Shown here: positions 3 to 32,316 of the stretch, piece after piece
Position numbering within the stretch: the stretch's first letter is position 1
How the letters are laid out: each line of letters starts with the position of its first letter
From: Roseicyclus sp.
Lineage (GTDB): Bacteria; Pseudomonadota; Alphaproteobacteria; Rhodobacterales; Rhodobacteraceae
DNA length: 32,572 nt
Direction of reading: 5' to 3'
Assembly (NCBI GenBank): GCA_018401385.1
Contig: JAGYKZ010000017.1
Location: 1 to 32,572 of the forward strand
The notes under the pieces: model-generated
What the model was told of the DNA's origin: nothing
Databases searched by the model: none
Seen by the model: the letters and a program-made list of their open reading frames with translations, nothing else
Position numbers and translations under genes: made by a program

Positions 3-863
3 GGCCTCGCGCGTTACCTTGGCGCTTCTGAACCGATTGATGCCCTGCCTGAGAAGATCAAAAAGCAGAACCCCGAACCGCTCTCGCAAAAGGTCGTCAA
101 TTATGACGAGATGGTGCGCGCCTTGGCAGAGATGGACCTATTTGGCCTATCCGACATCCCGATCTTTGAGCCCAGTCGCCATGCCGCAGTGCCGTCTTTT
201 GTGGCCGCGCCCACAACAGGACTGTTGTTTCAACCCATGCGCGGCAGCTTGTCGGAGGCGGTGATTGATTGGATGGCTGCAATTGATGGGGTTGGGCGTG
301 ATGGTCTCCATCGGCGGATGAGCCAAAACCAATTGCGCCAATGGATGCGCGCGCATGAGGGCTTTCGCAGTTTTGCGGTGATCCAACACCCGCTGGCCCG
401 CGCCTATGATGTGTTTACCCGCTATATCATCCCCACCGATCGCCCCCATTTTGCAACCGCACGGCGGGTATTGATGAAAACCTATGGCTTGGTCCTGCCT
501 GATACCTCGGATGATCCAAACTGGACGCTCGAGGCGCAAAGACACGCATTCAACCAATTTTTGAAATTCTTGCGAGGGAATTTATCGGGTCAAACGGGGC
601 TGCCCGTGGATCAGGCTTGGGCCACACAATCGGCCATTCTACAGGGTATGGCACAGGTGAAACTGCCTGATCTTTTGCTCAGAACCGAGGAACTTCCAAC
701 CGCGCTTCCTGCATTGGCTGGGGTAGATTATCCCTTTGTCTATCCTGTGCCAGCTGCGCGTGTCCCGCTTGCAAAAATATATGATGACGAAATGGAAGCG
801 CTCTGCGCAGAGGCTTATTGCCGCGATTACATCGCCTTTGGTTTTGGCGGGTGGCAGGCCTAA
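3..863 (+). CDS. NodH-like sulfotransferase family protein, 5' end outside window
   Basis: The reading frame is open from base 3 to a TAA at 861-863 with no stop upstream, so the gene begins left of the window; the ATG at 111 is internal. About 287 C-terminal residues are visible. A segment reading SFAVIQHPLARAYDVFTRYI resembles the phosphosulfate-binding helix region of sulfotransferases annotated as NodH-like in Rhodobacterales (family knowledge). The PAPS P-loop expected near the N-terminus would lie outside the window and cannot be checked. If the call is right, the protein transfers sulfate from PAPS to a carbohydrate or lipid acceptor; the acceptor cannot be told. The gene is convergent with ptsN and their stop codons overlap (CTAA at 860-863). 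An unrelated conserved protein remains possible. Confidence 0.6.
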   Translation, partial: GLARYLGASEPIDALPEKIKKQNPEPLSQKVVNYDEMVRALAEMDLFGLSDIPIFEPSRHAAVPSFVAAPTTGLLFQPMRGSLSEAVIDWMAAIDGVGRDGLHRRMSQNQLRQWMRAHEGFRSFAVIQHPLARAYDVFTRYIIPTDRPHFATARRVLMKTYGLVLPDTSDDPNWTLEAQRHAFNQFLKFLRGNLSGQTGLPVDQAWATQSAILQGMAQVKLPDLLLRTEELPTALPALAGVDYPFVYPVPAARVPLAKIYDDEMEALCAEAYCRDYIAFGFGGWQA

Positions 864-1291
864 GCGGCTTGGCTTTCAGCACCACCCGTCAACAAAGTGT
901 GCAGGGTCATTGGATCGCTGTTGGCGCGCAATTTTTCGCAAAGCTCCGCATCTCTGAGTGTGCGGGAGACCCGCGCCAGGGCCTTCAAGTGATCTACGCC
1001 CGTATCGGCGGGCGCGAAAAGTGCAAAAACCAGATCAACAGGTTGGCGATCTGCGGATTCGAAATTGACAGGACGCTCGAGTCGGAAAAATACACCTGTG
1101 ATCTGGGTCAGGGCCGAAAGACGCGCATGGGGCAAGGCCACGCCATGCCCCACGCCAGTCGGACCAAGGCTTTCGCGTTCCTGCAAGGCTTCAAAAATTT
1201 CAGAGGCGCTGACATCAATCAGCGTTTCTGCAACATCGGCTAGAGATTGCAGGAGACGCTTTTTGCTTGTGATGTCGGACACCACCTTCAC
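860..1291 (-). CDS. ptsN: PTS IIA-like nitrogen-regulatory protein PtsN (EIIA-Ntr)
   Basis: The 143-residue product is a PTS EIIA type-2 domain protein that accepts phosphate from NPr in the nitrogen PTS and acts as a cytoplasmic regulator of nitrogen and potassium balance. The phosphorylated histidine is visible in GVALPHARL (His55 counted from the GTG at 1291). The family is usually about 150 residues, and about ten N-terminal residues seem absent. The frame upstream of the GTG is open to a stop at 1340-1342 and encodes LLKPQ, which looks like the missing start of the domain. An ATG at 1320-1322 lies one base out of phase, just before a run of four T on the coding strand. Removing one T would give a normal N-terminus (MVSTLLKPQ...), so the true start is probably 1322 with a one-base error. 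It is downstream of hpf on the same strand, the usual alphaproteobacterial order. Confidence 0.88.
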   Translation of the reverse strand: MKVVSDITSKKRLLQSLADVAETLIDVSASEIFEALQERESLGPTGVGHGVALPHARLSALTQITGVFFRLERPVNFESADRQPVDLVFALFAPADTGVDHLKALARVSRTLRDAELCEKLRANSDPMTLHTLLTGGAESQAA

Positions 1292-1360
1292 GCCTTGCGG
1301 CTTGAGGAGCGTAGAAAACCATTGATCCGTATCCCCACCCTACACGGGCCATAAGTCGAT

Positions 1361-1917
1361 TTAACGCGGGTCAATCCAGCCTATATTTCCAGTCTTCGCG
1401 GGCGATAGACGATATTTAAGACCGTCACTCGCATCATTGCGAAACACCAACACAGGCGCGCCCGCCAGCTCCATCTGCATCACCGCCTCACCCACCGAGA
1501 GAGAGGGGATCTTGGTTTCTGTTTCCGCGATGATGATGGGCTGCAATGTGTCGTCCGCATCATCTTCATCTTTATCCGTTGACGCCAAGATATACGAGGC
1601 GGCGGCGAAATGTTCAACGAAACGGTTCCGCACGGTCGCGAGATGATCTTTCAGCCTGCGTTTGTAACGGCGCAGCTGCTTTTCCATTTTTTCGCAGCAT
1701 TTATCGAAAGCTGCGTAGATTTCTGGATCACTGCCTTTGGCAGCGGCGCTGAGGCCAGTGAGGTATTGGATTCGGCCATCACCACGGCCACTTTTTTGAA
1801 AACCACCTGTAGTTGACGCTCCGCATATTTCGCGACTGCGGCACCGAGCGTGTCCTTCACATATGTCTGGAGTGCTTCGCCAATATCGATTTGTTTTCCA
1901 CTGATTTGATAGCGCAT
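1361..1917 (-). pseudogene. hpf: Ribosome hibernation promoting factor, long form, frame-broken
   Basis: This is a long-form HPF/RaiA protein, which binds the 30S subunit and drives 100S ribosome dimerisation in starved cells. The N-terminal piece starts with an ATG at 1917 and reads MRYQISGKQIDIGEALQTYV, a typical HPF start, and stays in register to about AVAKYAERQ. It then goes out of frame. A second piece, open in another frame from 1687 to the TAA at 1361, carries MEKQLRRYKRRLKDHL and the C-terminal dimerisation domain (SLSVGEAVMQMELAGAPVLVF). The span of 557 bases is not a multiple of three. At least two or three indels lie between about 1690 and 1830. Both ends are well conserved, which argues for sequence errors over decay. 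The gene lies between lptB and ptsN; the rpoN often found there in other alphaproteobacteria is absent. Confidence 0.85.
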
Positions 1918-2033
1918 ATAACCTCCATTACGTAAAGATGGCGTTAAAGCGGGGCCTTAACGCATTGTAACAATCAAGGATGTCGGGAAAACGGCTGACC
2001 CAACAGCTTTTACATCTGCAAGTCGCAGCGACA

Positions 2034-2063
2034 CATAAAAAGTGAGGGTGTTGGCTCTGTCAA
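2034..2063 (-). promoter_or_regulatory. Candidate sigma-70-like promoter for hpf
   Basis: On the minus strand the 204-bp gap upstream of hpf holds a perfect TTGACA (2063-2058) followed after 18 bases by TTTATG (2039-2034), a weak -10 match. It would place a start site about 110 bases upstream of the hpf ATG. It is the only good -35 hexamer seen in this gap. It lies in a stretch of doubtful base accuracy. Confidence 0.3.
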
Positions 2064-2121
2064 ACATCAGCACTATTTGGCGACGAATCCCTGCCATCTG
2101 TCAACGCCCCGCAGAGACAGG

Positions 2122-2869
2122 TCAGCCGATTTTGAAGTTTTGGCCCAAATAAACGCGGCGCACATTCTCATCCTTGACGACATCTTGCGATGTGCCGCTC
2201 ATCAAGATTTTTCCATCATGCAAAATATAGGCGCGATCCACTTACTTCCAAAGGGCTTCATGCATTGTGATCCAATCAAGACCCTGATCTCGTGTTTTCA
2301 GATCCGCCACGAGGCTACGAATGTCATTGACCGCAATCGGGTCCACGCCCGCAAAAGGCTCGTCCAACAGGACATAGCGTGGATTGGAGGCCAGACAGCG
2401 CGCGATTTCTACTTGCCGCCGCTCCCTGCCTGACAGGATAGGCGGTGCACGGCGCAGATGCTCGATGGAAAAATCACTCAGCAAGTCTTCCAAGCGCTTG
2501 CGGCGCTGCGCGGTGTTTGGTTCGGATATTTCGAGAATAGACAGGATATTTGCCTCGACCGAAAGACCGCGAAAAATTGACATTTCTTGGGGCAGATACC
2601 CGATGCCTGCACGTGCGCGGCGATACATGGGCAGGCGCGTCACGTCTTGACCATCCAGACAACCTTGCCGCCATCTGCGTCACAAGGCTCCGTAATGGCA
2701 TAAAACTTGTGGTTTTTCCCGATCCGTTCGGGCCAAGCAGCCACAACCTGGCCACGGTGCAATTCAATCGACACATGCGGATCACAGCGGCGGGCGATAG
2801 CTTTGCGCAGATTGGTGACCACCAACCCCGCCAAACCCTTGCGACCTTCCACTTCGCCCGTTGTGTCAT
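2122..2869 (-). pseudogene. lptB: LPS export ABC ATPase LptB, frame-broken
   Basis: LptB is the cytoplasmic ATPase of the LptB2FG complex that pulls LPS from the inner membrane and pushes it through LptC and LptA. The ATG at 2869 lies 4 bp after the lptA stop, and the TGA is at 2122-2124. Fragments in three frames together cover the whole family: VVTNLRKAIARR, a damaged Walker A (nucleotides read GPNGSGKTT after one-base corrections near 2720-2740), GIGYLPQEMSIFRGLSVEAN, the signature region before ERRQVEIARCLASNP, Walker B YVLLDEPFAGVDP, and a C-terminus reading SGTSQDVVKDENVRRVYLGQ. The region near 2240-2270 that should encode the ITDHNVHEA H-loop is garbled. At least four indels are needed. 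As LptB is essential in nearly all Gram-negatives, sequence error is more likely than a real pseudogene. Confidence 0.88.
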
Positions 2870-2873
2870 CTCG

Positions 2874-3375
2874 TTAGTTCCCCTGTCCTTGCAGCGTGGT
2901 GCGCACACGCCCTCTGAACGGTGCCTTTGCCCTGTGGCAATATCCAAAACCATACGTTCGCCCGCAATGGCACCCCTTGTTGCGTGACCAACACATTGCC
3001 CAGCATTTCATTTCATTGCGCGCAACGAAATAGGTGGCTGATCTCCTTTCTCCAGCGGCCTCAAAGCCGCAAGTGTGATCAGAACGCCGCCCATCGCCCG
3101 TAATTCTGATCAATTTCCTGCGCTGGCTATCCGCGTTGGGGTTGTCCCGATAGACCACCTGAATTCGCAGCGGAGATGCGTAAATCGCCTTGCACAGCCA
3201 GCGCGACATTGCCCAAGAAAATCGTATTTCCGGTGGCTTCATCTATTTCGCTGTCTGAGAGAACTTCGATTAAGAGCGTCATGCGCGTGCCGCCGAAGCC
3301 GCCGATGGCGGTTTGTGCCCATCCAGCCGCGCTTGGCCCAAGCGCCAGAATCAATGCCAAATATATGTGCTTCAC
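2874..3375 (-). pseudogene. lptA: LPS transport periplasmic bridge protein LptA, frame-broken
   Basis: LptA forms the periplasmic OstA-fold bridge that carries LPS to the outer membrane. A signal peptide is visible (VKHIYLALILALGPSAAGWA), followed by SEIDEATGNTIFLGNVALAV and DLRISAA, typical of the OstA/LptA fold. The middle and end run in other frames (VVYRDNPNADSQR, RVRTTLQGQGN before the TAA at 2874). The GTG at 3375 is preferred as the start because a GGGGAGGAG stretch sits just before it and because it overlaps the TGA of lptC as GTGA (3375-3372); an in-frame ATG at 3387 is the alternative. The 502-base span is not a multiple of three, and at least three indels are needed. It is followed by lptB with a 4-bp gap. 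Confidence 0.82.
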
Positions 3376-3978
3376 TCTCCTCCCCATCGTCTTGATATAG
3401 CACCCGAACGCCCCCCGAAATGCAATAAACCTGCCGTGCAGGTGGCCCCAGGATATCCATGCGCCCCGCCTCAAGCTTGAGGTCAGGCCCGGGTGATCAC
3501 GATAGGGTGTGGCGCGGCGATGGTGCCACTGGCTGCGTCAATCGCCAATTCTCGGTCTCGATCCGGTATCCCTGTGGCGTGTACAACAACATTGCTCCCG
3601 CAAATAGGTGTCGCTGGTGCGGTTGTCCCATTCGCCAGATCGGCGAGATCTGGTCAGCGGGTTTGATCAAGATGGGGAAACAGTTTCAAACTCGATATCC
3701 TGCGCGATGATCTGATCGGGACTCATCCGCCCTGCGCCGCTGAAGCTGGGTGGTCAGTTCAACCGGGCGTCCTGTCCCCGTCACCATCGCAAAACGCGGC
3801 GCGGTCATGCCTTCTGGACCCAATTGACCATCCAAGCTGCGCGTGGCCGCGGTAGGCCTGATCTGGGTCGGGACGGCCTGAAAACAGAAACATCAAAGGA
3901 AAACATCACCTGTGCCGCAAGCGGCAGCACCAGTTTGCTCAATACATGACATGGGAATAGGTGTTTTCTAAGGACCAT
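3372..3978 (-). pseudogene. lptC: LPS export inner-membrane-anchored protein LptC, frame-broken
   Basis: LptC is a small bitopic protein linking LptB2FG to LptA. Reading the minus strand and allowing for indels gives an N-terminal anchor resembling LVLPLAA plus a hydrophobic run, then GLTAPRF-like residues (seen as EGMTAPRFAMVTGTGRPVEL), YTPQGYRIETENW, and the end KLEAGRMDILGPPARQV followed by VRVLYQ. These are typical of alphaproteobacterial LptC. The ATG at 3978-3976 overlaps the rnd stop as TGATG, and the TGA at 3374-3372 overlaps the lptA GTG. No single frame spans the gene, and several indels are required. Identification rests on position and scattered motifs, so it is less certain than lptA or lptB. 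Confidence 0.7.
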
Positions 3979-4604
3979 CAGCGGCCGTCATTTCGTGAGA
4001 AAATATCAATCTCTGGCCATCCGGCGAAAGACTGCTTCGGCGCGCATTGGTATATAACTGAAACAGGCCTGCGCGATGTCTTGGGCGGTTTCCTCGCGCG
4101 GATCAGCACGCGTCCAATCCTTATTTGATATCGCAAATAAAGCACGTCTGAGGCGGCATAATCCTGTTGCGCTTCGCTTAATTCGGCCGCACCTCTAATC
4201 GGAACTTTGTTGATATTTCTGACATATCAACACCCAGCAATTCTTGGGCAAGGTCCAGCCCGTGACGATCCGTATAGGTGCGCACCAGTTTGGAGGCGAT
4301 TTTTGTGCAATAGAGGCTGGACGCCGCGCCGAAGTTGATGAGGCGGTCGCGGCAATGTCAAAGCGCCCGAAATGGAACAGTTTCAGCGTGTTCGATCCGT
4401 CAAAAGCGCGCAGAGATTTGGCGCTGCGGTTTGATCTTGGCTGATCTGCACCAGATGTGCATTTCACTATCTGACAGCTGCACCAGACACAAAGGGTCGC
4501 GATGTGGGTTCAATCCCATTGTCTCGCAATCAATCGCCACAATCGCCAGATTCAGGACCATCTGGCAGGTGGTCATTGTGATAGGTATGGATGGTCACGC
4601 GCAT
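3978..4604 (-). pseudogene. rnd: Ribonuclease D-type 3'-5' exonuclease, frame-broken
   Basis: The family is the short DEDD exonuclease (about 200 residues, no HRDC domain) that trims tRNA 3' ends. The ATG at 4604 gives MRVTIHTYHND, a typical start. Other frames then show AIDCETMGLNPHRDPLCLVQLSD, which carries the first catalytic Asp and Glu (exo I, DxE), LKLFHFGRFDIA (exo II Asp), and further on ELSEAQQDYAASDVLYL (exo III, YxxxD) and the end GWPEIDIFS, finishing at TGA 3980-3978. The total of 627 bases is 209 codons, matching the family, but at least five compensating indels break the frame. It lies about 100 bp downstream of tRNA-Leu on the same strand and overlaps lptC by one base. Confidence 0.83.
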
Positions 4605-4706
4605 TCGCCTCAAAATATCCACAAAAGGATCAAAAACGGCGTACAGGGGCGCGGTAGCAATATGGGCTAGTTATCTAGGACAGCCCCTTATTTTATAATC
4701 GTTTTT

Positions 4707-4793
4707 TGGTGCCCAGGAGAGGACTCGAACCTCCACGTCCATACAGACACTAGCACCTGAAGCTAGCGCGTCTACCAATTCCGCCACCTGGGC
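4707..4793 (-). tRNA. tRNA-Leu (anticodon CAG), CCA encoded
   Basis: The minus strand folds as a type II tRNA. The acceptor stem pairs GCCCAGG (4793-4787) with CCTGGGC (4717-4711), followed by discriminator A and an encoded CCA (4709-4707). The D arm has GGTAGACGC, the anticodon stem is CTAGC/GCTAG with loop TTCAGGT (anticodon CAG, reading CUG), a long variable arm follows, and the T loop is GTTCGAGTC. The length is 87 nt including CCA. All stems pair, so this stretch is accurate although the next genes downstream are not. Confidence 0.97.
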
Positions 4794-4812
4794 CAGTGTC
4801 GTGGATGCGTGC

Positions 4813-4839
4813 ATTATATACCGCCTTGCCAACTGTCAA
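4813..4839 (-). promoter_or_regulatory. Promoter of tRNA-Leu
   Basis: The minus strand carries TTGACA (4839-4834) and TATAAT (4818-4813), both perfect sigma-70 hexamers, separated by 15 bases rather than 17. The -10 element ends about 20 bases before the mature tRNA 5' end, so a 10-15 base leader would be removed by RNase P. Placement and hexamer quality make this a good candidate; the short spacer is unusual. Confidence 0.7.
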
Positions 4840-4992
4840 CGGCTGTTGAACGGTTTGGGCGGATTTCGGGCGCGATGGGCGCGGGATGGGCGTGGGCGCT
4901 GAGGGTATTGCGTCATTTGCGCCTTGTTTCGCGGGGGCTTGGCGCGTATCACTCGCACAATATCCAGACCTATACGACCGAAAGGCAGACCA

Positions 4993-5973
4993 ATGTCCAA
5001 GCTTGTGACCATTTTTGGCGGTTCAGGATTTGTGGGGCGCTATATTGCCAGACGCATGGCCAAAGAAGGTTGGCGTGTGCGTGTCGCCGTGCGCCGCCCC
5101 AATGAGGCGGGTTTTGTGCGCCCCTATGGTGTGGTCGGTCAGGTCGAGCCTGTTTTGGCGAATATCCGTGATGATGCCTCGGTGCGGGCCGCGATAAAAG
5201 GGGCCGATGCGGTTGTGAATTGCGTGGGTATATTGGTGGAGACAGGCAAAAACAAATTTGACGCGGTGCAGGCCGAAGGGGCCGCGCGCATTGCGCGGAT
5301 TGCCAAAGAGGCGCGCGTGGCGCGGCTTGTGCATATTTCGGCCATCGGTGCGGATGCCGCGAGTGACAGTTTCTATGCGCAATCCAAAGCCCAAGGTGAG
5401 GCCGCTGTGAAGGCCGCTTTCCCCAAGGCTGTCATCCTGCGGCCTTCGATTGTCTTTGGCCCTGAGGATCAATTCTTCAATCGCTTTGCAGGCATGGCGC
5501 GACTGTCGCCTTTCGTGCCCTTGATGGGCGCGGGCAGCACCTTTCAGCCTGTTTATGTGGATGACGTGGCACAGGCGGCTGTGCAATCCATTCTCGACCC
5601 GTCTTTTTCAGGCGTGTATGAGCTTGGCGGACCCGAGCAATTGAGCTTCCGTGCCTTGATTGAGAAAATGTTGACGGTCATCGGGCGCCGCCGTGTGATC
5701 CTGTCGATCCCTCGGATTGCTGCCCTGCCCATGGCCTTTGGTTTCGATATGCTTCAGGCGGTGACCTTCGGGCTGTTCACCAATGGGATTTTGACCCGTG
5801 ATCAACTGCGTCAGCTGAAGCGCGACAATGTGGTGTCTCCGAAGGCCAAGGGGTTTGCGGATTTCGGGATTGAGCCAACCGCGCTGGACACGGTTCTGCC
5901 CGAATATCTGTGGCCCTATCGCGATGGTGGGCAATATGCAGCGATCCGCGATAGCGCCTCGAAGCTGCGGTAA
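4993..5973 (+). CDS. NAD(P)-binding protein, complex I NDUFA9-like subunit family
   Basis: The 326-residue protein is an atypical short-chain dehydrogenase/reductase of the NDUFA9-like family, whose mitochondrial member is an accessory subunit of complex I. The Rossmann glycine motif GGSGFVGR lies at residues 9-16. VVNCVGIL follows, then a YAQSK segment matching the YxxxK active-site pattern, and ILRPSIVFGPEDQFFNRF, the family hallmark. The C-terminal half (VYELGGPEQLSFRALIEKML) is normal for the family. The ATG at 4993 is chosen because it starts directly before the Rossmann strand and follows GAAAGG; the frame is open further upstream to 4924. It stands alone between tRNA-Leu and uppP, with no nuo genes in view. 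The role is membrane-associated redox or quinone metabolism by family inference only. Confidence 0.88.
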   Translation: MSKLVTIFGGSGFVGRYIARRMAKEGWRVRVAVRRPNEAGFVRPYGVVGQVEPVLANIRDDASVRAAIKGADAVVNCVGILVETGKNKFDAVQAEGAARIARIAKEARVARLVHISAIGADAASDSFYAQSKAQGEAAVKAAFPKAVILRPSIVFGPEDQFFNRFAGMARLSPFVPLMGAGSTFQPVYVDDVAQAAVQSILDPSFSGVYELGGPEQLSFRALIEKMLTVIGRRRVILSIPRIAALPMAFGFDMLQAVTFGLFTNGILTRDQLRQLKRDNVVSPKAKGFADFGIEPTALDTVLPEYLWPYRDGGQYAAIRDSASKLR

Positions 5974-5976
5974 AAC

Positions 5977-6780
5977 TCAGGAATAGGCGATCACCAACAG
6001 GATCATGCCCAAGATCACGCGATAGATCACATAGGGTGTGTAACTGACGGTTTTCAAAAGCCGCATCATCACCGACAGCGCCAAAAGCGCGGCGATAAAG
6101 GCAAAAGCGGCGGCAATCGCCCCGTCACGGGCGGCGGCCAGATTGGCCGTGCCCACAACCTCCAGACCCAGCAAGGTGCCTGAGGCAAGGATCACGGGCA
6201 CAGACATCAACATCGACAGCCGTGCCGCATCCTCGCGGCCATATCCCAATTTGCGTGCGGCGGTGATGGTAATGCCTGAGCGCGATGTGCCGGGGATCAA
6301 CGCAAGGATTTGTGCAAACCCCATCACGAGCGCATCTTTCAACGTCCAAGCGGTTGCGGGCTTGTCTTCTGTGCCCGTGCGATCCGCCCAAAAGAGCAGC
6401 AGGCCAAAACCCAACATCGTCCATCCAATGACGGCGGTTGAGCGCAACAGATCAGACAGCCCCGTGAGTTTGAAGATCAACCCCGCGATGATGACGGGCA
6501 CGGTGGCAATGATGAGGCAGAGCGCCAAAAATGCCCCGCGGGTGTCAATCTTGCCTTGAAGCAGGCGGAGAAAACCAAAAAGTGCTTCTTTAAAATCCGC
6601 CCAGAAATAGAGCAGCACGGCACCCAATGTGCCGAGGTGAACGGCCACATCAATCAATTGACCTTGGTCCGCGTGATTCAAGAGATTCGGCAGCAGAATC
6701 AGGTGACCAGAGGATGAAATCGGCAAAAATTCCGTGATGCCTTGGATCGTGGCCAGAATGAAAAGATAGAGAAGGCTCAT
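5977..6780 (-). CDS. uppP: Undecaprenyl-diphosphatase UppP (BacA family)
   Basis: This integral membrane enzyme dephosphorylates undecaprenyl diphosphate to recycle the lipid carrier for peptidoglycan and other envelope polymers; its overexpression gives bacitracin resistance. Both signature motifs are visible: EFLPISSSGH near the N-terminus (residues 17-26 from the start used here) and PGTSRSG at about 163-169. Multiple hydrophobic segments cover the rest, and the length of 267 residues is normal. The ATG at 6780 (MSLLYLF) is chosen by comparison with the family; an in-frame ATG at 6795 adds MDFAK, and neither has a clear ribosome binding site. It is convergent with the NDUFA9-like gene, 3 bp away, and divergent from gltD. 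Confidence 0.95.
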   Translation of the reverse strand: MSLLYLFILATIQGITEFLPISSSGHLILLPNLLNHADQGQLIDVAVHLGTLGAVLLYFWADFKEALFGFLRLLQGKIDTRGAFLALCLIIATVPVIIAGLIFKLTGLSDLLRSTAVIGWTMLGFGLLLFWADRTGTEDKPATAWTLKDALVMGFAQILALIPGTSRSGITITAARKLGYGREDAARLSMLMSVPVILASGTLLGLEVVGTANLAAARDGAIAAAFAFIAALLALSVMMRLLKTVSYTPYVIYRVILGMILLVIAYS

Positions 6781-9141: not shown

Positions 9142-9199
9142 GGCTTTGGCCCGTTTTGCGCATCCCGAAGATGCCCCTTCCGAAAGAAAGGTATGAGTG

Positions 9200-12100
9200 A
9201 TGACCAAGTTTGATGCCGAATGGGTGGCCGCAGAAGAGGCCAAGCGCGCATTTATGGCCGAGCATGGTATGTATTCCCTTGAAGAAGAACATTCCTCTTG
9301 CGGCGTGGGTCTGGTCGTGGCGGTGAACGGCAAGCCCTCGCGCCGTGTGGTGGAAAACGGGATCAATGCGCTGAAGGCCGTGTGGCATCGCGGGGCCGTA
9401 GATGCAGATGGAAAAACGGGCGATGGCGCAGGCATCCATGTGCAAATCCCTGTCCAGTTCTTCTACGACCAAATTCGCCGCACAGGTCATGAACCTGCAT
9501 CTGACAAGATGATCGCGGTCGGTCAGGTGTTTCTGCCCCGCACCGATTTTGGCGCACAGGAACGCTGCCGCACGATTGTCGAATCCGAAGTCCTGCGCAT
9601 GGGTCATTATATCTATGGCTGGCGCCATGTCCCCGTGAATACCGAAGTTCTGGGCGACAAGGCCAATGCCACACGGCCAGAGATCGAACAGATCCTGATC
9701 CGCTGCGAAAAGGACATGACCGAGGAAGAATTCGAGCGCGAGCTGTACATCATCCGCCGCCGCATCGAAAAAGCTGCGGCCGCAGCGGGCGTGGGCCAGC
9801 TGTATCTATGCTCCTTGTCCTGCCGTTCGATTATTTACAAAGGTATGATGTTGGCCGAGCAGGTGGCGGAGTTCTATCCTGATCTGCAAGATGAACGCTT
9901 TGAGAGCGCCTTTGCCATTTATCACCAGCGTTATTCGACCAATACTTTCCCGCAATGGTGGTTGGCACAGCCGTTTCGGATGTTGGCCCATAATGGTGAG
10001 ATCAACACCCTAAAGGGCAATGTGAATTGGATGAAAAGCCATGAGATTCGCATGGCGTCCACCTATTTTGGGGACATGGCCGAAGACATTAAGCCGATTA
10101 TTGCGCAAGGATCTTCTGACTCGGCGGCTTTGGACGCGGTGTTTGAGGTCTTGGTGCGTGCTGGGCGCAATGCGCCAATGGCGAAAACCATGTTGGTGCC
10201 CGAAGCATGGAGCCAAACCGCCAGTGAATTGCCACAGGCATGGCAGGATATGTATTCCTATTGTAACAGCGTGATGGAGCCTTGGGACGGTCCCGCCGCC
10301 CTTGCCATGACCGATGGTCGCTGGGTTTGCGCGGGTCTGGATCGCAACGGTCTGCGTCCCATGCGCTATGTCGTGACGGGCGATGGGATTCTGATCGCAG
10401 GGTCCGAGGCGGGTATGGTGCCTTTTGACGAGGCACGCGTGATCGAAAAAGGCGCGCTTGGCCCGGGCCAGATGATTGCGGTCGATATGGAAACGCAAAA
10501 GCTGTTCCACGATACCGAGATCAAGGATGCCTTGGCCGCCGCGCGTCCCTTTGGCGATTGGGTGGGGAAGATCACTGATCTGGCCAAAGAGACCGAAGGT
10601 TTGACGGAAACGGCAATTTTCTCGGGCGAAGACCTGCGCCGCCGTCAGGTGGCTGCGGGCTATACGATTGAGGAATTGGAACATATTCTCGCGCCCATGG
10701 CCGAGGATGGAAAGGAGGCCTTGGCCTCCATGGGGGACGACACGCCCAGCGCGGTTTTGTCGAAGAAATACCGCCCCCTTAGCCATTTCTTCCGCCAAAA
10801 CTTCAGCCAAGTCACCAACCCACCTATCGACAGTTTGCGTGAATATCGGGTGATGAGCCTCAAGACGCGCTTCGGCAACCTCAAGAACGTTTTGGACGAG
10901 GACAGCAGCCAGACCGAGATATTGGTTCTCGACAGCCCTTTTGTGGGGAACGCGCAATTTGACGCGATGGTAAAGCATTTCGGCGATGCCGTGGTGACCA
11001 TTGACGCGACCTTTGCGGCGGGTTCGGACAAAAACGGTCTGCGGGATGGGTTGGCGCGACTGCGCCAAGAGGCCGAAGATGCGGTGCGCTCAGGTGCGGC
11101 GCATATCGTGCTGACGGACCGTTTCCAAAGCACCGAAAAAGTAGCGATGCCCATGATATTGGCGACAAGCGCGGTGCATTCATGGTTGACGCGCAAGGGG
11201 CTGCGGACCTTCTGTTCGCTCAACATTCGCTCGGCCGAATGTATCGACCCGCATTATTTTGCGGTTTTGGTGGGCTGTGGCGCAACAACGGTGAATGCCT
11301 ATTTGGCGGAAGATTCGCTTGCGGATCGTATTGATCGCGGATTGTTGGATGGCACATTGACCGAGGCGGTGGCGCGCTATCGCAACGCGATTGATCAGGG
11401 CCTGTTGAAGATCATGGCCAAGATGGGGATATCTGTGATCTCCTCCTATCGTGGTGGCTTGAACTTCGAGGCCGTGGGCCTGAGCCGTGCGATGGTCGCG
11501 GAATATTTCCCGGGCATGACCAGCCGCATTTCGGGCATTGGCGTCTCAGGCCTGCAAAAGAAATGCGAGGAAGTGCACGCGCTTGGCTGGTTGCAAGGCG
11601 ATGGTGTCTTGCCGATTGGCGGCTTCTACAAGGCGCGCCGCTCTGGTGAAACCCACGCGTGGGAAGCGCAATCGATGCATATGATGCAGATGGCGTGCAA
11701 CAAAGCGTCCTTTGAATTGTGGAAGCAATATTCTGCCAAGATGCGCGCCAACCCGCCCATTCATCTGCGCGATTTGTTGGACATCAAGCCCTTGGGCCAG
11801 CCCGTTCCGATTGAGGAGGTGGAATCGATCACCTCGATCCGCAAGCGCTTTGTCACACCAGGCATGAGCCTTGGTGCCCTCAGCCCTGAGGCGCATAAAA
11901 CCCTCAACGTGGCGATGAACCGTATTGGTGCGAAATCCGACAGCGGTGAAGGTGGTGAGGATCCCGCGCATTTCACGCCTGAACCCAATGGCGACAATCC
12001 AAGCGCCAAGATCAAGCAGGTCGCATCGGGCCGCTTTGGTGTTACGGCTGAATATCTGAACGCTTGCGAGGAACTGGAAATCAAGGTCGCCCAAGGGGCC

Positions 12101-13738
12101 AAACCCGGTGAAGGCGGGCAATTGCCCGGCATGAAAGTGACCGAGCTGATCGCGCGCCTGCGCCATTCGACCAAAGGCGTGACGCTGATTTCACCGCCAC
12201 CGCATCACGATATCTATTCCATCGAGGATCTGGCGCAGCTGATCTATGACCTCAAGCAGATCAACCCGCGTGCAAAAGTGACCGTGAAATTGGTGGCCTC
12301 CTCGGGCGTTGGCACGATTGCGGCAGGTGTGGCTGGCGCAAAGGCGATGTGATCCTGATCCGGGCCATAATGGCGGCACGGGTGCAAGCCCTGCAACTTC
12401 TATCAAATATGCGGGTCTGCCATGGGAAATGGGTCTGACTGGAGGCGCATCAGGGTCTTGTCACCGAACAACCCAGCGACCGTATCACCTTGCGCACAGA
12501 TGGTGGTCTGCGACAGGCGCGATATCGTCATGGCCGCGATGATGGGGCCGAAGAATATGGTATTGGCAATCAGTTGCGTTGATTGCCATGGCTGTATCAT
12601 GGTGCGTCAGTGCCAGTCCAACACCTGCCCTAAAGCCGGTGTCTGCACGCAAGATGAATCTTTGCGCGCAAAATTTACAGGGAATGCGGATAAGGTTGTC
12701 AATCTCATCACCTTCTATGCTCAAGAAGTGCGCGAGATTCTGGCTGAGATTGGGGCACATAGCCTTGATGATGTCATTGGGCGTGCAGATTTGTTGACAC
12801 AGGTCAGCCGTGGTTCGGCGCATCTGGATGATCTTGATCTCAACCCGATGCTGATCACGGTCGATGGTGCGGATAAGATCGTCTATGACCGCAACAAGCC
12901 ACGCAATGCGGTGCCCGACACATTGGACGCGCAGATTGTCAAAGATGCCGCCCGCTTCCTTGAGGATGGCGAAAAGATGCAATTGTCTTATGCCGTGCAA
13001 AACACGTTGCGCACCATCGGCACCCGCGTCTCCAGCCATATCGTCAAGAATTTTGGGATGCGCAACGCGCTGCAACCAGACCATCTGACGGTGAAGCTGG
13101 AAGGATCGGCGGGTCAATCCTTGGGTGCATTCGCCGCGCCAGGGTTGAAGCTGGAGGTTTCAGGCGATGCCAATGACTACGTTGGCAAGGGCCTGTCGGG
13201 CGGCACAATTGTCGTCAAGCCCGCTCAGGTTAGCCCACTGACGGCATCGGAAAACGTCATCATTGGCAATACGGTGCTTTATGGTGCGACCGATGGCTAT
13301 CTCTTTGCGGCAGGACGTTCTGGGGAACGGTTCGCGGTGCGCAATTCAGGCGCCAAAGTCGTGATTGAAGGCTGCGGGTCGAATGGCTGCGAGTATATGA
13401 CGGGTGGCGTTGCGGTCATATTGGGGTCGATAGGGGCTAATTTTGGCGCGGGTATGACAGGCGGGATGGCCTATCTCTATGACCCAAGCGGCGAGGCGCT
13501 GACGAATATGAACCTTGAGACGCTTGTGACCTGCCCCGTGACCGTGGCCCATTGGGAGGCGCAGCTTCTTGATCTTTTGCAGCGCCATTTGGCCGAAACA
13601 GGCTCACGCAAGGCGAATATGATCCTTCAGAATTGGGATGTCGAGAAGGGCCACTTCCTTCAGGTTTGCCCGAAGGAGATGCTGAACAAACTGACGCATC
13701 CGATCAGCCTCGAAGCCACGGCTGTCCCAGCAGAGTAA
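9200..13738 (+). CDS. gltB: Glutamate synthase [NADPH] large subunit, with internal frame damage
   Basis: GltB hydrolyses glutamine and transfers the ammonia to 2-oxoglutarate on FMN. The ATG at 9200 follows a GAAAGG site; after a 33-residue propeptide the catalytic Cys34 lies in [10 protein letters not shown]. The Ntn amidotransferase domain, central domain and start of the FMN domain run intact to a premature TGA at about 12350. The frame resumes by about 12500-12600, with [13 protein letters not shown] (the 3Fe-4S cysteines) and the C-terminal beta-helix domain to the TAA at 13736-13738. Between 12345 and 12600 the expected residues (for example [20 protein letters not shown]) appear in shifting frames, needing at least four single-base indels. 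Start and end are in the same frame, and the total of 1513 codons matches the family's roughly 1510, so the errors compensate. This is most likely one intact gene with sequence errors. Confidence 0.93.
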
Positions 13739-14781: not shown

Positions 14782-16287
14782 ATGATACGCGCCGCAATCG
14801 GCTTGATTTTGGGACTGATCCTTTTGACCACTGCCATCGTGTTGCTTGAGCGGGGTCGTGCGGATGTGGTGCAGCGCGATATGGTTTGGGGCAATACCCC
14901 CGTCACATGGATGGAGCGGCCAGGGGCTGATGGCCCTTTGGTGGTGATTGCACATGGTTTTGCGGGATCGCGGCCGTTGATGCAGGCGTATCAAATCGCC
15001 TTGGCAAAGGCAGGTTACCTGACGGTGAGTTTCGATTTCGAGGGACATGGTCGCAACCCGCAGCCGATGCGGGGCGATGTCACCGCGATCGATGGGACCA
15101 CGACCTTCTTGATGGATGAATTGGCCCGTGTCACGGATCGTGCGATCGATATGGCGGGGATGGATCGTGGCTTGGCCTATCTGGGTCACTCTATGGCCAG
15201 CGACATCATCATTCGGCAATCCCTGCGCGATCCGCGGGTCGATACAGTCGTGGGTTTGTCGGTGTTCTCTTTGGCGATATCAGCAGATGCGCCGCGGTCC
15301 CTGCTGATGATCAATGGCCAATGGGAGCCGGGATTGCGCGCGGCGGCCCGCGCCGTCATGGGCGAGATTGGCGCAAGCGAGGGGCAAGTGATCCGCGATG
15401 CGGGCGGCTTTGCCCGTGCGGCACAGGTGGCCCCATGGGTGGAGCACGTGGGTATTCTCTATTCCCGCAATGCGATTTCACAGACGATATCATGGCTGGA
15501 CGAACAGTTTGACGTGACGCGCCAAAGCGCCCCACCTATTGCGCTCATGGGGCAAGTGATCTTGCTTGGGTTTGCGGGTTTGGTCATCGCTTTGGCCAGT
15601 CTCGCCACCATGCTGTTCAAAGGGCGGGCGCGGCGGGTTCTGCCGATTACACCGCGTGCCTTTTGGCTGGCCACATTTGCGCCGGCGGTGGTGACGCCGC
15701 TTGTCTTGCAAGGCGCGGGTCTGGCGTTCGTTCCAGTGGTTTTGGCGGATTACCTTGCGCTGCATCTGGCCCTTTACGGGCTATTGGCTATTGCGATCCT
15801 GCTATTGACGGGGCACGCGAGCGTGATCTTTCCTTCCGTTTCGCGGATGTGGCGCAGTGTCATTATTGGCCTTGGGTTTGGCGCATTCAGTCTTGCCGTT
15901 CTGGGCCTGTATCTCGACCGCTATGTCGGGAGCTTCTGGGCGGGCGATGCGCGCATTTTACCATTTCTGGTGATCCTGATTGGTGCGGTGCCCGCGATGA
16001 TCGCGGATGCGGCACTGCAATCTGGCACGCGCCCCGATCTGGCAGCGGGTTCTGGTCCGTCTGACATTCCTCGCTCTCTCTCGGGGGGGGGTGGCATTGG
16101 ATTTTGAGCGAATAAGTTGTTCTTTGATCCTGATCTCGCCCGTGATTGTGCTGTTCTATGGCAGCTTTGGTTTTGTTTATGCCCGCATTGGGCGGGGCAA
16201 GGCGCTGTCCTCGGCATGGCGTTGGCGATGGCTCTGGCCTTGGCTTGGGCCTTGGCCGTAAGCTTTCCATTGCTTGAGGCGCTCTAG
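14782..16287 (+). CDS. Membrane alpha/beta hydrolase, 3' end frame-damaged
   Basis: An N-terminal membrane segment (residues 3-22) is followed by an alpha/beta hydrolase domain: the oxyanion loop IAHGFAG at 56-62, SFDFEGHGRN, and the nucleophile elbow YLGHSMAS with Ser137. From about residue 250 the protein is a chain of hydrophobic helices (around five), so the hydrolase is anchored by a polytopic C-terminal half. Substrate unknown. The first frame stops at TGA 16105-16107, straight after a run of nine G at 16083-16091, in the middle of what should be a membrane segment. Another frame continues with LDFERIS and VIVLFYGSFGFVYARIG, and the original frame returns with a hydrophobic end to TAG at 16285-16287. 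That stop shares a CTAG palindrome with the stop of the convergent gene, which supports the longer gene. Indels at the poly-G and near 16130-16200 are the likely cause. Confidence 0.8.
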
Positions 16288-17375
16288 TAACCGGTCATTT
16301 CAAGATAGCCTTCGGCGCGGTGGCTTCCCGTGGCGTGGATCGGACCTTCCCAATAGGGAATACTGCCGGCCATCCACGCATCTGGGTTGAGCGCCGTGAT
16401 GGTGATGTCCAAGTCGCGTGCGGGCAATTGGAGGTTCCACTCCACCGGCACGTTGCGACCCGCCACCTCATGGGTATCAATGGGTGTCATATGCAATGCG
16501 CCATTTCCAAAGGCCGTGGGCGTGCCATCCGCCGCAATCCATGTGGCCGAGGTGAAGCGACTGCCATTGGTGCTGCGCAGCGCGAAACCCATCAGTTTCT
16601 CGCCCGTGTCGAAATGCAGCGAGACCCAATCCCACCCTTCTTGATCTGCCGCCAAAGGTTGGGATGACCATTCACGGTCCAGCCAAGCGCGTCCCCTCAC
16701 CTGATGCGCGCCATCGGGTAGGGTGATCGTGCCCTCCACCGCGAAAAAGGGTTGCGAGAAATAATAGCTGGTCTGGTCGTCCTCAGATTTGACTGAAAAC
16801 CCCGCATCCCCATGCAGCACCAGTGGCCCTTTTGCGGCCAGTGTCAGATCATAGGCAAAATCCGTGCCCCGCGCTGTCAGGGAAATCTGCGCAAGGGAGT
16901 CCGCCTCTGGTCCGATATCTAGGGACTGCAACTGCCAATCATCCATCCAAACGCGCAAGCGGTTGTCCTCTAGATCAGCGCCCGCTTGCCCGGTGCCACC
17001 GCGTGCATAGCGCTCGGCGTGCATATGACGATCTGCCCATGTCACGGCCGCATGGCCAAGCCAAATTTGCCCATCATCCCATGTTTCCTCGGGGCCATTG
17101 ACGGGCCGCGTTGCATTGGGCCGTGTTGCATTGCGAAACACCGTCCATTGCACACCCAGATCGCGCCCGCTCTCATCACGTAAATTCGCAGTCAAATACC
17201 ACCATTCAATGCGATATTCTGGATGGGCTGAATGATCTTGGGGAAACACCAACGCCCGGCTGCGGTCGACTTCGGCGAAACCATCAACCGCTTGCCCCAT
17301 ACCCGCAAAACCCTGCGCAAATGCGGGTTGAACGAATAAGGTCAGGCACAGCAGAAATGCAAGTTTAGCGTTCAT
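16284..17375 (-). CDS. Secreted CrtC/AttH lipocalin-like protein
   Basis: The 363-residue product has a signal peptide (MNAKLAFLLCLTLFVQPAFA) and belongs to the hydroxyneurosporene synthase (CrtC)/AttH lipocalin-like group. Seen features are PEYRIEWWYLTANL near the N-terminus, GRAWLDREWSSQPL (a hallmark of the family) and a C-terminal IPYWEGPIHATGSHRAEGYL. CrtC hydrates carotenoids, whereas AttH-type members are exported proteins encoded with an ABC transporter. The neighbours here are an ABC ATPase and an FtsX-type permease, so AttH-like is the better match. The ATG at 17375 overlaps the permease end by 11 bp; an upstream in-frame ATG at 17471 would lie inside the permease gene and is rejected. 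Exact function is unknown. Confidence 0.85.
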   Translation of the reverse strand: MNAKLAFLLCLTLFVQPAFAQGFAGMGQAVDGFAEVDRSRALVFPQDHSAHPEYRIEWWYLTANLRDESGRDLGVQWTVFRNATRPNATRPVNGPEETWDDGQIWLGHAAVTWADRHMHAERYARGGTGQAGADLEDNRLRVWMDDWQLQSLDIGPEADSLAQISLTARGTDFAYDLTLAAKGPLVLHGDAGFSVKSEDDQTSYYFSQPFFAVEGTITLPDGAHQVRGRAWLDREWSSQPLAADQEGWDWVSLHFDTGEKLMGFALRSTNGSRFTSATWIAADGTPTAFGNGALHMTPIDTHEVAGRNVPVEWNLQLPARDLDITITALNPDAWMAGSIPYWEGPIHATGSHRAEGYLEMTGY

Positions 17376-19827
17376 GGGCAAACAATCCCAGCAGGCGGTG
17401 AGGTGAGAGCCGCGCCAATCTCCATGCGGGCCATAATGCAGACATTCCTGCCGCACAGAGGGCCAATCCACCCAGTTTCAGCAGGTCGGCGGGGAAGACA
17501 GACATCGGCAAGCGCCAGCCGAAGGCCTCAACGTTGATGATTGCCAACAGGAAATACGCGAGGGCCATTCCAACAGGCAGGGCCAAAATACAGCAAAACA
17601 GCGCGAAGATCAGGATGCGGACCATCTCGGTTCCTGCCAAAATCCGCCGCCGCTGCCCTGCGGCCCAAATCGGTGCAATCTGCACCAGACGCATATCAGA
17701 AAGGGTCAGCAGGCTTGTGAAAATGGCAAATCCCGCCACGCCCAAGGTCAACGCATTCAGCGCATATGTCACCTGAAAGGTTTGCTCGAATACCCGCAGC
17801 GAGATATCCTTGACTGCGGTTTGATTGATCATCGATTGCGGTGATAGCCCTGTCGCGCGGGTGATCTCCGCCGCCAATTCGGTCACATGAGACGGATCTG
17901 TGCGCAAGCCAAAGCGCAAAATCGGTGTCTCGGGAAACAGACCTTGAAACAGGGACAGCCCGATGATGGCTTGCCCCTCTGGATTTCCGTAATCGGAATA
18001 GATGCCCAAGATGGGCAAGGTCACATATGGGGCCACCGCGAAGACATCGCCCAAGCGATACCCATCCCTTCGTGCAAGTTGTTCGTTGATCACCACGCCC
18101 TCACCGGCGGCCATCCGCGACCATGCCTGATCGGCGGCTTCCAAAAACGGCCAATGATCGCGATAGGTTGCGTGATCCATCAGACCATGAAGCTGCGCTG
18201 GCAATTCGCCATAGCGCGTTTCGATCAGCGCGAAGGGCAGGATGGCCGCCACCCGCGGCTCCAGAAATTCGGTGACCGCTGCCGCCTGCTCGGGCGTTGC
18301 AGTGGTCAGATACATTTCCGCGGCCAATCTTTGATCCAACCACCCTGTGAAGGTTTCGCGGAAGGAGCCGACCATCGTGGATACCCCGATATTGGTTGAT
18401 AAGGCCAATAACAGTGCCATAAGCGACAGGGACAATGCGGGTAAAGACAGGCGCATATCCGCGAAGACCCAGTGCAGATAGGCGCCATTGATGCGGTTTT
18501 GGATGTGCTTTGCGATCAGTCCCAAAAGCGCGGCAAGAAAGCGCGGTAAGATCAGTGCAGACCCAAGCAGCAGGGCCGCCAATCCAACGAAGCCCAGGAT
18601 CAAGCCTTGACCAAATAGCGCCACCCCAAGCGCGATGCACAAAAGTGCCGCGCCGCTCCCGCCTTGTAGGCGGCGCAGCTCTGCGCTTGCGCGACCCCAA
18701 GCATTGGGTGTGGCTGATTGCAATATGGGGAGATGTGCCACGCGCCACAGCGCAGATGCCCCTGCAATCAGCGCTCCGCCAAAAGACATCGCCAATGCGG
18801 TGACGGCCCAGACTGGATCAAAGCCCAAACGGCTGTCGATATCAGCCCCATAAAGCCCGCGCAAACTTGCCGACACTTCGGGGAGCAAACTGGCCGCCAG
18901 ACCATACCCGAAAACAAGCCCCAGACCGCCCGCAAGCAGCGCGAGCAGGCCAAGCTCGACAGCAAGCAGAAGCATCAGGGGCCGCAGCGGCACACCCAAG
19001 GCGCGCAGGGTTCTGACTGTGGCGCGGCGTTGTTCAAACGCCAGTCCGATGGTGGCATGGGTGATGAATAATCCAACGGCAAAGGCCAAAAACCCGAAAG
19101 CGGTCAGGTTGAGGTGAAAGCTGTCAGTCAATCGTGCCAGATCACCGCTTGCCTCGGCGTGCTGTAAAATCACATCTTCGCGCTGTTTGGTCCAATCCGC
19201 AATCGGGGGCAGGCCAAAGGGCTGTTGCTCCGCCACGATGAATGCGGTTGCGCCATCATGATTTAAAAATCCAGCAATCGTGGCGACATCCCCGATCACA
19301 AGACCTGTGGCAAGATTGGGATCAAGGGCTGCGGCCGTCAGTTTGTTTGCCACGATGGGGGTCAAATCGGGTGGCAAACCGCGTGCAAGGGTCGCCTCGG
19401 AGATCAGAACCCGCCCCTCCAGCAAAAAATCGTTCACGTTTAACGTGCCGTTCTGCAAGGTTTTGGGAAGGGCGGGCACAGGCAAGGTCAGTGGGTCGAT
19501 GCCAAGCAGGCGCAGCGCATTCGGACCAGAGCCAAGCCGCCCCTCGATCACGGGCGAGACCAGATAGCCTGATTGACGCAGCGCGCGAAACACCGCGCTG
19601 TCCATAGGGCGGCCATCTGCCCGAAGGATTCGGTCAAATTGATCTTGCCCCAAGAGACCAGCCGCGCGCGCATAGCTGCTGCGGGCTTCGGCGTTCAGCG
19701 CCTGAACCCCTGACCAAAGCGCCGTGGCCAGTGCAAGCCCAGCGATGAGGGCAAAGATTTGCATCGGGTGCCGGCGCCAATGTCCCAAAACGGCAGTAAG
19801 CGTGGCTGAAAGGGCATCCCGCCTCAT
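17365..19827 (-). CDS. FtsX-type ABC transporter permease, double-domain (AttFG-like)
   Basis: The 820-residue protein is a MacB/FtsX superfamily permease carrying two halves in one chain. There is an N-terminal membrane helix (about 22-44), a periplasmic region, a first FtsX domain with three helices (about 245-375), two or more central helices (about 395-435), a further helix near 468-485, a second periplasmic region, and a second FtsX domain (about 695-815). Such ten-helix permeases work with a LolD-like ATPase to move lipids or proteins out of the inner membrane or to drive periplasmic work mechanically. It overlaps the upstream ATPase gene by 4 bp (ATGA) and the downstream lipocalin-like gene by 11 bp. 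The trio resembles attEFGH, with AttF and AttG fused. Confidence 0.9.
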   Translation of the reverse strand: MRRDALSATLTAVLGHWRRHPMQIFALIAGLALATALWSGVQALNAEARSSYARAAGLLGQDQFDRILRADGRPMDSAVFRALRQSGYLVSPVIEGRLGSGPNALRLLGIDPLTLPVPALPKTLQNGTLNVNDFLLEGRVLISEATLARGLPPDLTPIVANKLTAAALDPNLATGLVIGDVATIAGFLNHDGATAFIVAEQQPFGLPPIADWTKQREDVILQHAEASGDLARLTDSFHLNLTAFGFLAFAVGLFITHATIGLAFEQRRATVRTLRALGVPLRPLMLLLAVELGLLALLAGGLGLVFGYGLAASLLPEVSASLRGLYGADIDSRLGFDPVWAVTALAMSFGGALIAGASALWRVAHLPILQSATPNAWGRASAELRRLQGGSGAALLCIALGVALFGQGLILGFVGLAALLLGSALILPRFLAALLGLIAKHIQNRINGAYLHWVFADMRLSLPALSLSLMALLLALSTNIGVSTMVGSFRETFTGWLDQRLAAEMYLTTATPEQAAAVTEFLEPRVAAILPFALIETRYGELPAQLHGLMDHATYRDHWPFLEAADQAWSRMAAGEGVVINEQLARRDGYRLGDVFAVAPYVTLPILGIYSDYGNPEGQAIIGLSLFQGLFPETPILRFGLRTDPSHVTELAAEITRATGLSPQSMINQTAVKDISLRVFEQTFQVTYALNALTLGVAGFAIFTSLLTLSDMRLVQIAPIWAAGQRRRILAGTEMVRILIFALFCCILALPVGMALAYFLLAIINVEAFGWRLPMSVFPADLLKLGGLALCAAGMSALWPAWRLARLSPHRLLGLFAHER

Positions 19828-20543: not shown

Positions 20544-21289
20544 CTAGCGCAGACGGATCGGCAGATCGAAATTATACACAGGGCGCGTGAGGCCATCTGG
20601 CGCAGGTGGATAGGGGCTGGCGCTTTCCACAAAGGCCAGGATTGCATGATCAAGATCGCTCTGCCCCGTGCCCATCAGAATCCGCGCATTCTGTAAATGT
20701 CCGTTTGCATCAATCACAAGACGCAAGGTCGCAGTCCCTTGGCCACGGGGGCGGCTGCGGTTGCGTTCAAGCTGTGTCAATATTCCCCGCCCCCATAAGG
20801 ACATCAATTGATGAATGGCGCCGTCAGAGTTTTGGCTTTCGGCTGCATTGTTTATGCGCGCCTCTGTCGCGGCACCGTTTTGTCCCAACTGACCTTGGCC
20901 ACGGGCAACCTGTGCAGCTGTGGATGGCGCGATATCTGGCAGACGGTCCGCTGCGGTGACAGCGCGGGTGGGGTATAAGCGCGATCTGCTGCTGCGGCGC
21001 CCATCATCCCCTCTTGCACACGCGGGCTAGGGATTTGGGGTGCCGCGAAGGGCTGCGGTAAGGGTGTTGCCGCAAGGTTTACCTCGGGCGGGCGGGTCCA
21101 GTCTTCGACCAAGATAGCCAATTCTTGTGGCGCGGCCGCAAGGCTGACACGATGAAGCCCTGCATCACCTGCGCCTTCTGCGCCTGTCATCTTTGGGTTG
21201 TGACCATATCCAACCCATGCGGCGACCCCAATGTGAAGGCCCAGTGAAACGCCCAGAAAGCTCAAAGCCTGAACAACGGTCTTAATCAT
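20544..21289 (-). CDS. tonB: TonB family protein, one frameshift
   Basis: TonB transmits proton-motive energy from ExbB/ExbD to outer-membrane receptors. The ATG at 21289 overlaps the upstream exbD by 4 bp. An N-terminal membrane anchor (about residues 8-28) is followed by a short proline-containing linker, then a C-terminal TonB domain (TATLRLVIDANGHLQNARIL, followed by a YPPAP motif) ending at TAG 20544. The two parts are in different frames. At about 20950-20970 the first frame leaves the protein after YTPPALSP, and the other frame gives TAADRLPDIAPSTAAQVARG without interruption. One base change in length restores a protein of about 248 residues. The linker is short for TonB. Its position after exbB-exbD-exbD and btuB suggests it serves the B12 receptor. 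Confidence 0.85.
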
Positions 21290-21705
21290 TCGCCGCGCCC
21301 CCCAAGCCGTGTCAGCAGATCGACCTCCGCGATGCCGCGCGCCCCCAAATCAGACAGGGTGCGGGCCAGTTCATGCGCGGGATACTGCGCGTCTACTGCC
21401 AAGGAAACAGTCTCTAAACGGCCTGTTCGAGCCGTATTAAGGCCGTTCAAGACCGCCGCTTTTCCGCGCAGATCGCCATAGGCCCAAACCCCATCCCCAC
21501 CAATATAGATTACGTTTTGTGGTGCTGCGCTGGGGTGTTCTGTCATCTGGGACACGGGCAGGCGTAGATCCACAGGGGCGCTTGGGCGCAGGGTCGCACT
21601 GGTCAAAAAAAAGATCAACAGCAAGAAAACCACATTGATCATCGGCACCATGTCGAGATCAGCCAATTTGCGCCTGGATCGTATGGGTGCCGCTGTAAAT
21701 CTCAT
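21286..21705 (-). CDS. exbD: ExbD/TolR family biopolymer transport protein (second copy)
   Basis: The 139-residue protein has a basic start, then LADLDMVPMINVVFLLLIFFL, the single membrane helix of ExbD/TolR with the conserved Asp in the form MINVV rather than MIDVV, followed by a periplasmic domain of about 95 residues. It overlaps both neighbours by 4 bp (ATGA). The replacement of the membrane Asp by Asn at the usual proton-carrying position, visible when compared with the first copy (MIDVVFLLLIFF), makes it possible that this copy is a structural rather than proton-conducting partner. Confidence 0.93.
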   Translation of the reverse strand: MRFTAAPIRSRRKLADLDMVPMINVVFLLLIFFLTSATLRPSAPVDLRLPVSQMTEHPSAAPQNVIYIGGDGVWAYGDLRGKAAVLNGLNTARTGRLETVSLAVDAQYPAHELARTLSDLGARGIAEVDLLTRLGGRGE

Positions 21706-22115
21706 TCGATCACCGCAAGATTGTTCAAGCCTGCTGCGCGCAAAGCCCCCATGAGTTCAAGCATATGTTCCACTGTGGCCGCGTCTTTGGGTTGCAGAAT
21801 AATTTTATTCTGTGGGCCGTTTTCACCAAGGTCACCAGAGATTAAGGCGCGCAAAGCGGGGATCAACGCTGCAAGAGAGATCTCGCGCCCGTTCAGCGCG
21901 AGGCTATCTTGGGAAAATGTCACCAAACGCGGCGGGCCTTCATACAGGCTTACACCGCCGCTTGCAGTGCCATCTGCGCGCATGGGCACAACCGCATCCC
22001 GGCCCAATTCCGTGACCAACATAAAGAAAATCAGCAACAAAAACACAACATCAATCATCGGCGCAAGGCTGGCGCGCCGCCGCACAGATCGCGTGTTTTC
22101 AAATTCGAGCCTCAT
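21702..22115 (-). CDS. exbD: ExbD/TolR family biopolymer transport protein (first copy)
   Basis: The 137-residue protein has LAPMIDVVFLLLIFFMLVTEL, the membrane helix with the conserved Asp that takes part in proton flow through the ExbB pore, and a periplasmic domain of about 95 residues ending HMLELMGALRAAGLNNLAVIE, typical of the family. It overlaps exbB and the second exbD by 4 bp each. ExbB and ExbD form the inner-membrane motor that energises TonB. Confidence 0.95.
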   Translation of the reverse strand: MRLEFENTRSVRRRASLAPMIDVVFLLLIFFMLVTELGRDAVVPMRADGTASGGVSLYEGPPRLVTFSQDSLALNGREISLAALIPALRALISGDLGENGPQNKIILQPKDAATVEHMLELMGALRAAGLNNLAVIE

Positions 22116-27877: not shown

Positions 27878-27950
27878 TTCGGCTCCAATAAACTGGCGGC
27901 GGCAGGTCAGTGACCCGTGCCAATCGGTTATGGTCATTGGAGGGATTGCC

Positions 27951-27989
27951 CCTTCCGCAGACGGCGAATTTTGCCACCACGACGGAAGG
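27951..27989 (-). promoter_or_regulatory. Leader hairpin between riboswitch and btuB
   Basis: On the minus strand CCTTCCG (27989-27983) pairs with CGGAAGG (27957-27951), enclosing a smaller GGC...GCC stem. It lies between the aptamer and the btuB start, where an expression platform is expected. No T-run follows, so a transcription terminator is unlikely; a role in translation control or leader folding is possible. Confidence 0.35.
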
Positions 27990-28028
27990 TCCGTTGCCCG
28001 CTGCGCCCACCGCGCTTGGACAGGGTGA

Positions 28029-28213: not shown

Positions 28214-28237
28214 GTGTAACGCTGGGATGTGCTCAAC

Positions 28238-31165: not shown

Positions 31166-31178
31166 TCTCGATCCTGTG

Positions 31179-32129: not shown

Positions 32130-32194
32130 TTGATCCTCTCCAATCTTGCATGAATTAAGGCGGCCAGATGCGCCCATATGATGCCGTCAACGGT

Positions 32195-32223: not shown

Positions 32224-32316
32224 GAAGTTGCGAGCCGTTCTCAAATCTGTGATCGCAAGCTTGTCAAACGGTCTGAACCTGTCACTGTGAGGCGAAAGGC
32301 GAGCGGAGGACCATCC

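Follow-up and report, generated by a model that had tools for sequence, protein, structure and literature searches.

Gene breakage by the indel errors of long-read assembly is already well known. In the portion of the Kastor report drawn on here, indel errors in long-read and hybrid assemblies are described as fragmenting genes (PMC12007338), and gene-breaking indel errors are likewise covered in the corresponding portion of a study comparing metagenome assemblies, where Watson and Warr (2019) are cited (PMC8575027). The locus presented here resembles the cases in those accounts in that small indels split genes that are open in relatives, and in that the assembly is a draft. It differs from them, as far as those portions go, in that the putative errors are packed in bursts instead of being thinly spread, and in that no homopolymer enrichment was observed.

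The window, that is, the whole stretch of DNA that was analysed (32,572 nt), is the entire contig 79 of a fragmented assembly that totals 2.10 Mb over 197 contigs, with a completeness of 69 %. Comparisons were made with three other genomes of the genus, designated G001, G002 and G003. The match between G003 and the window was 84.7 % over positions 1–26,076 and 83.1 % over 27,212–32,572 (84 % over 800–6000), and the two are collinear across the whole of the damaged patch. Since G003 aligned across the window, it provided a clean yardstick for indels. The relevant features of the window are listed below.

1298–4605, no strand: main patch, putatively of low sequence quality, where private indels number about 20 per kb
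860–1347, minus strand: ptsN (PF00359 match; tblastn alignment from codon 13); the 3′ part, 860–1291, is open and clean, and the 5′ end is broken from 1318
1364–1917, minus strand: hpf, frame-broken, in two out-of-phase tblastn pieces, with PF02482 and PF16321 in separate frames
2122–2869 (approximate, from the alignment), minus strand: lptB, frame-broken (alignment, tblastn)
2874–3375 (approximate), minus strand: lptA, frame-broken (alignment, tblastn)
3375–3978 (approximate), minus strand: lptC, frame-broken (alignment, tblastn)
3988–4598 (approximate), minus strand: RNase D-like gene (rnd), frame-broken (alignment, tblastn)
4707–4793, minus strand: tRNA-Leu (CAG), the intact right-hand neighbour (ARAGORN), identical to G003 in the alignment
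9197–13738, plus strand: gltB (glutamate synthase large subunit), in two ORFs, split by a burst at 12345–12590

The first indel of the patch lies at 1318–1319 in the alignments. The right edge can be placed only approximately, because 4600–4706 is intergenic and diverged. Names were checked on the G003 copies, of which hpf (TIGR00741), lptB (TIGR04406) and lptC (TIGR04409) scored above the NCBIfam cut-offs. The lptA copy reached 67.3 bits with TIGR03002, slightly below the cut-off of 71.7, and the rnd copy fell far below that of TIGR01388, the full model being longer than this RNase D-like gene.

In G003, ptsN, hpf, lptB, lptA, lptC and rnd are each a single open frame, and the stretch also contains an epimerase gene and a gene that we take to encode an undecaprenyl-diphosphatase-like protein, both open as well. 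All six genes from ptsN to rnd are full length, or nearly so, in G001 and G002, in the same order. The window has this same gene content and order and differs from the block of the three relatives only by its broken frames: hpf, lptB, lptA, lptC and rnd were recovered by tblastn solely as out-of-phase pieces. The first-pass annotation had described these five genes and, probably, the start of ptsN as frame-broken, and its description is borne out by the tblastn pieces and by the 66 private indels detailed below. It had called the flanking tRNA and sulfotransferase frame clean; the tRNA and the flanking genes are indeed undamaged. It had also held that each broken gene retains its start, stop and overlaps (TGATG, GTGA). 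This stands in part, in that recognisable starts are seen for several genes in the alignment; the lptC/lptA junction reads GTGA in the window, whereas in G003 it is TGATG with an ATG start.

The junction between rnd and the tRNA-Leu and epimerase genes (window 3988–4793) is not conserved in the genus, its two sides being approximately 21 kb apart in G002 and 6 kb apart in G001. For the flanking epimerase gene, the best 80 of 579 relatives showed 66–72 % identity and carried mostly Rhodobacterales names.

A four-way alignment over window positions 860–4625 revealed 66 indels private to the window (one of them at the alignment edge, 4626), 56 of which are not multiples of three. In the same alignment, private indels numbered one in G003, one in G001 and none in G002, and both of those were multiples of three. 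The window indels comprised 38 deletions and 28 insertions, and 50 of the 66 involved one or two bases. A pairwise comparison with G003, under stricter gap costs, gave 84 gaps that are not multiples of three in the 3,037 aligned bases of the patch genes (27.7 per kb), as against 45 in the 25,240 bases of the remaining coding sequence of the window (1.8 per kb); the Poisson P value for this difference is about 6e–68 if the gaps are treated as independent. By a tally of the gap list, nine of the 45 outside gaps make up a second burst at 12,345–12,589. As to the other 36, 29 belong to tight clusters whose lengths add up to a multiple of three, and seven lie within approximately 100 bases of a gene end.

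The main patch is not the sole damage in the window, although the first-pass annotation mentions no other. The nine gaps of the second burst, again identified pairwise against G003, break the frame of gltB. The ORFs at 9197–12352 and 12422–13738 correspond to positions 3–1021 and 1080–1469 of NF008730 and are two parts of one gltB; the G003 gene is one frame of 1,513 codons, with which tblastn runs through window positions 9197–13735. The two ORFs could pass for two genes, and automatic gene calling would report two gltB genes.

Damage of the same kind was found elsewhere in the assembly. A total of 35 stretches of the genome, approximately 488 kb, were scanned for same-strand frame switches, and seven of them showed at least four switches per kb; none of three stretches of G003 and none of two from G001 and G002 did so. 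Three of the flagged stretches (L111, L130 and L131) were compared with G003, and bursts were present in all three. The scan is a weak one, as the window itself was not flagged at this threshold, the main patch having been called largely non-coding; a scan for stop-free frames saw only 3538–4902 of that patch. In an unflagged stretch, L140, five gaps against G003 were observed, of which three would shift the frame, all adjoining a region of poor alignment. Stretches L109, L132, L138 and L146 also have at least four same-strand frame switches per kb and may hold further bursts.

In all, five bursts are recognized besides the main patch, one being that in gltB and four lying at other loci on three contigs, as follows.

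L130, 7070–8180, contig 1: burst in bchX and the next gene (comparison with G003)
L131, 12617–13208, contig 1: burst in a PUCC-family gene (comparison with G003)
L111, 1313–2120, contig 20: burst in prmC, adjoining a clean prfA-like gene (comparison with G003)
L162, 1645–2244, contig 158: burst running from the last part of lpxC into the first part of the bamD frame, with 28 indels against G003 and clean neighbours

Per-gene counts were made on stop-to-stop frames, so that some positions may lie before the start codon. Counted in this way, bchX has 13 indels and the nitrogenase-component-1-like gene after it eight, all in the first 205 of its 1,590 bases; the PUCC-family gene has nine against G003; and prmC has 14, with three in the adjoining DUF4167 gene. 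The lpxC frame has 17, of which 16 are in its last 400 bases, and a search for LpxC found the domain divided between two frames; the 12 indels of the bamD frame all lie in its first 175 bases. The gene upstream of lpxC, presumably ftsZ, contains a single gap, which keeps the frame, and no gap lies in the gene after bamD. No frame-shifting indels were found in the ftsZ-like, prfA-like, ADH_N and NifH-family genes or in other neighbours of the bursts.

The bursts range from approximately 0.25 to 3.3 kb, and their edges ignore gene boundaries: ptsN is clean up to 1318, and lpxC and the gene after bchX are damaged in part, while in hpf to rnd, bchX and prmC the damage runs through most of each gene. 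LPS genes are affected in two of the six bursts. The damaged genes have no common function, being concerned with LPS export and synthesis, ribosome hibernation, glutamate synthesis, bacteriochlorophyll synthesis, release-factor methylation and outer-membrane assembly. Most of them are held to be indispensable.

Taken together, these comparisons of sequence argue that the frame-broken block is an assembly artefact and not a real biological feature, a reading to which a probability of about 0.96 is assigned. An artefact is preferred to gene loss because similar damage occurs at unrelated loci of the assembly and because the close relatives are open. The first-pass annotation likewise had favoured a low-quality patch over true decay, and the five further bursts, the intact relatives and the mostly mid-gene edges lend that preference strong, though indirect, support. 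The bursts would represent short stretches of contig written from poor read evidence, such as a thin or unpolished consensus. The most natural source would be a single error-prone long read, or a few of them, spanning a site with little other coverage, and the 3.3 kb extent of the main patch suggests reads of this type rather than short reads. The outcome would be a consensus left with about 20 small indels per kilobase. Most likely, the living genome carries intact ptsN, hpf, lptB, lptA, lptC and rnd genes at this locus. Claims of loss drawn from this assembly for lptABC, hpf, rnd, lpxC, bamD, gltB, bchX or prmC are very likely to be false.

The character of the indels bears on the kind of error involved. 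Single-base indels lay in homopolymer runs in 16 of 34 cases, against a baseline of 47 %, so there is no enrichment. This is unlike the error pattern that is usual for nanopore, 454 or Ion Torrent, although read error in general is not contradicted; no one technology can therefore be named. The ratio of indels to excess substitutions, by arithmetic from the divergence counts, is roughly 0.3–0.6. Ratios of 0.10–0.36 are given for seven bacterial species in the portion of Sung et al. (2016) drawn on here (PMC4978911), and the patch also exceeds the 106 indels to 779 substitutions given for Teredinibacter turnerae in the cited part of PMC5833318. This ratio was dropped as a decisive test because its range overlaps the upper end of real bacterial values; it leans towards error.

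Of the alternatives to an artefact, true decay survives best, though it is judged highly improbable. The lineage would have lost LPS export, and perhaps LPS itself, along with hpf and rnd, and a pseudogene cluster would stand in place of the block. In keeping with this, lpxC is broken as well and no LptD was found in the assembly; that absence says little, because 31 % of the genome is missing and LptD may lie there. No match to the LptD_N/OstA-type family PF03968 was found in the genome, as a broken lptA and an absent lptD would predict. In addition, LptC can be dispensed with in Escherichia coli, where LptF mutations bypass its absence, according to the portion of PMC4986956 used here. Against decay, lptF and lptG, the partners of the broken lpt genes, are open, and equal damage is seen in gltB, in bchX and its neighbour, in the PUCC-family gene and in prmC. 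Furthermore, neutral decay should cover the whole of a broken gene, yet several bursts stop mid-gene beside clean sequence, as in ptsN, lpxC and the gene after bchX (hpf to rnd are themselves hit throughout).

Substitutions speak on both sides of the question of decay. Away from indels, and measured against the consensus of G001 and G002 where these agree, the window has diverged at 201/468 third positions (43 %) and G003 at 347/842 (41 %), so that third positions are not accelerated, which counts against decay; at positions 1 and 2 divergence in the window is slightly raised, at 140/1093 (12.8 %) compared with 178/1955 (9.1 %) in G003, which counts in its favour. At codon positions 1 and 2, private mismatches are concentrated around the indels (96/773 as against 60/1004, P=2.7e–6), and part of this clustering may be misalignment. 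Outside the patch, mismatches stand at 7.0, 3.7 and 31.1 % at codon positions 1, 2 and 3. The excess at positions 1 and 2 would fit substitution errors, and relaxed constraint would fit it too.

Even less probable is a multi-strain consensus, or a chimera of binning or assembly, in which a real variable region became scrambled. Strains can be mixed in draft assemblies of this sort, and the genome is in 197 contigs; however, strains whose genes work would be expected to differ through substitutions and through indels that keep the frame, whereas 56 of the 66 private indels break it, and collinearity between the window and G003 persists across the patch. An equally scant likelihood attaches to the broader proposition that the indels are real, in which case an apparently phototrophic lineage of the Rhodobacteraceae would combine block-wise indel hypermutation with the loss of LPS export and several core functions. 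Such biology would challenge the indispensability of the damaged genes, but the evidence points the opposite way. Real local indel hypermutation acting on scattered blocks of the genome would account for bursts that are discrete, dense and composed of both insertions and deletions, but it is barely credible, given that the bursts fall in genes mostly regarded as indispensable, that the lpt block is without a second copy, and that no common motif or element was noticed in an unsystematic inspection of the bursts.

The matter of a second copy bears equally on the preferred reading of an assembly artefact. The first-pass annotation had proposed a check for intact copies elsewhere, and none was found in the assembled 69 % of the genome. 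With the G003 DNA of the block as query, the best of 41 matches (E≤10) beyond the window was 46 bases long, with an E value of 0.011.

The presence of bchX and of the PUCC-family gene indicates that the lineage carries bacteriochlorophyll genes and is probably phototrophic. Two further features of the window were observed. At 16284–19827, a CrtC-like lipocalin-domain protein is encoded beside an FtsX-type permease, forming an ABC-exporter-like pair. At 21286–27937, ExbD, ExbB, an ABC ATPase, a FecCD permease and a TonB-dependent receptor are encoded in a row, which by their domains make up an iron or haem uptake locus.
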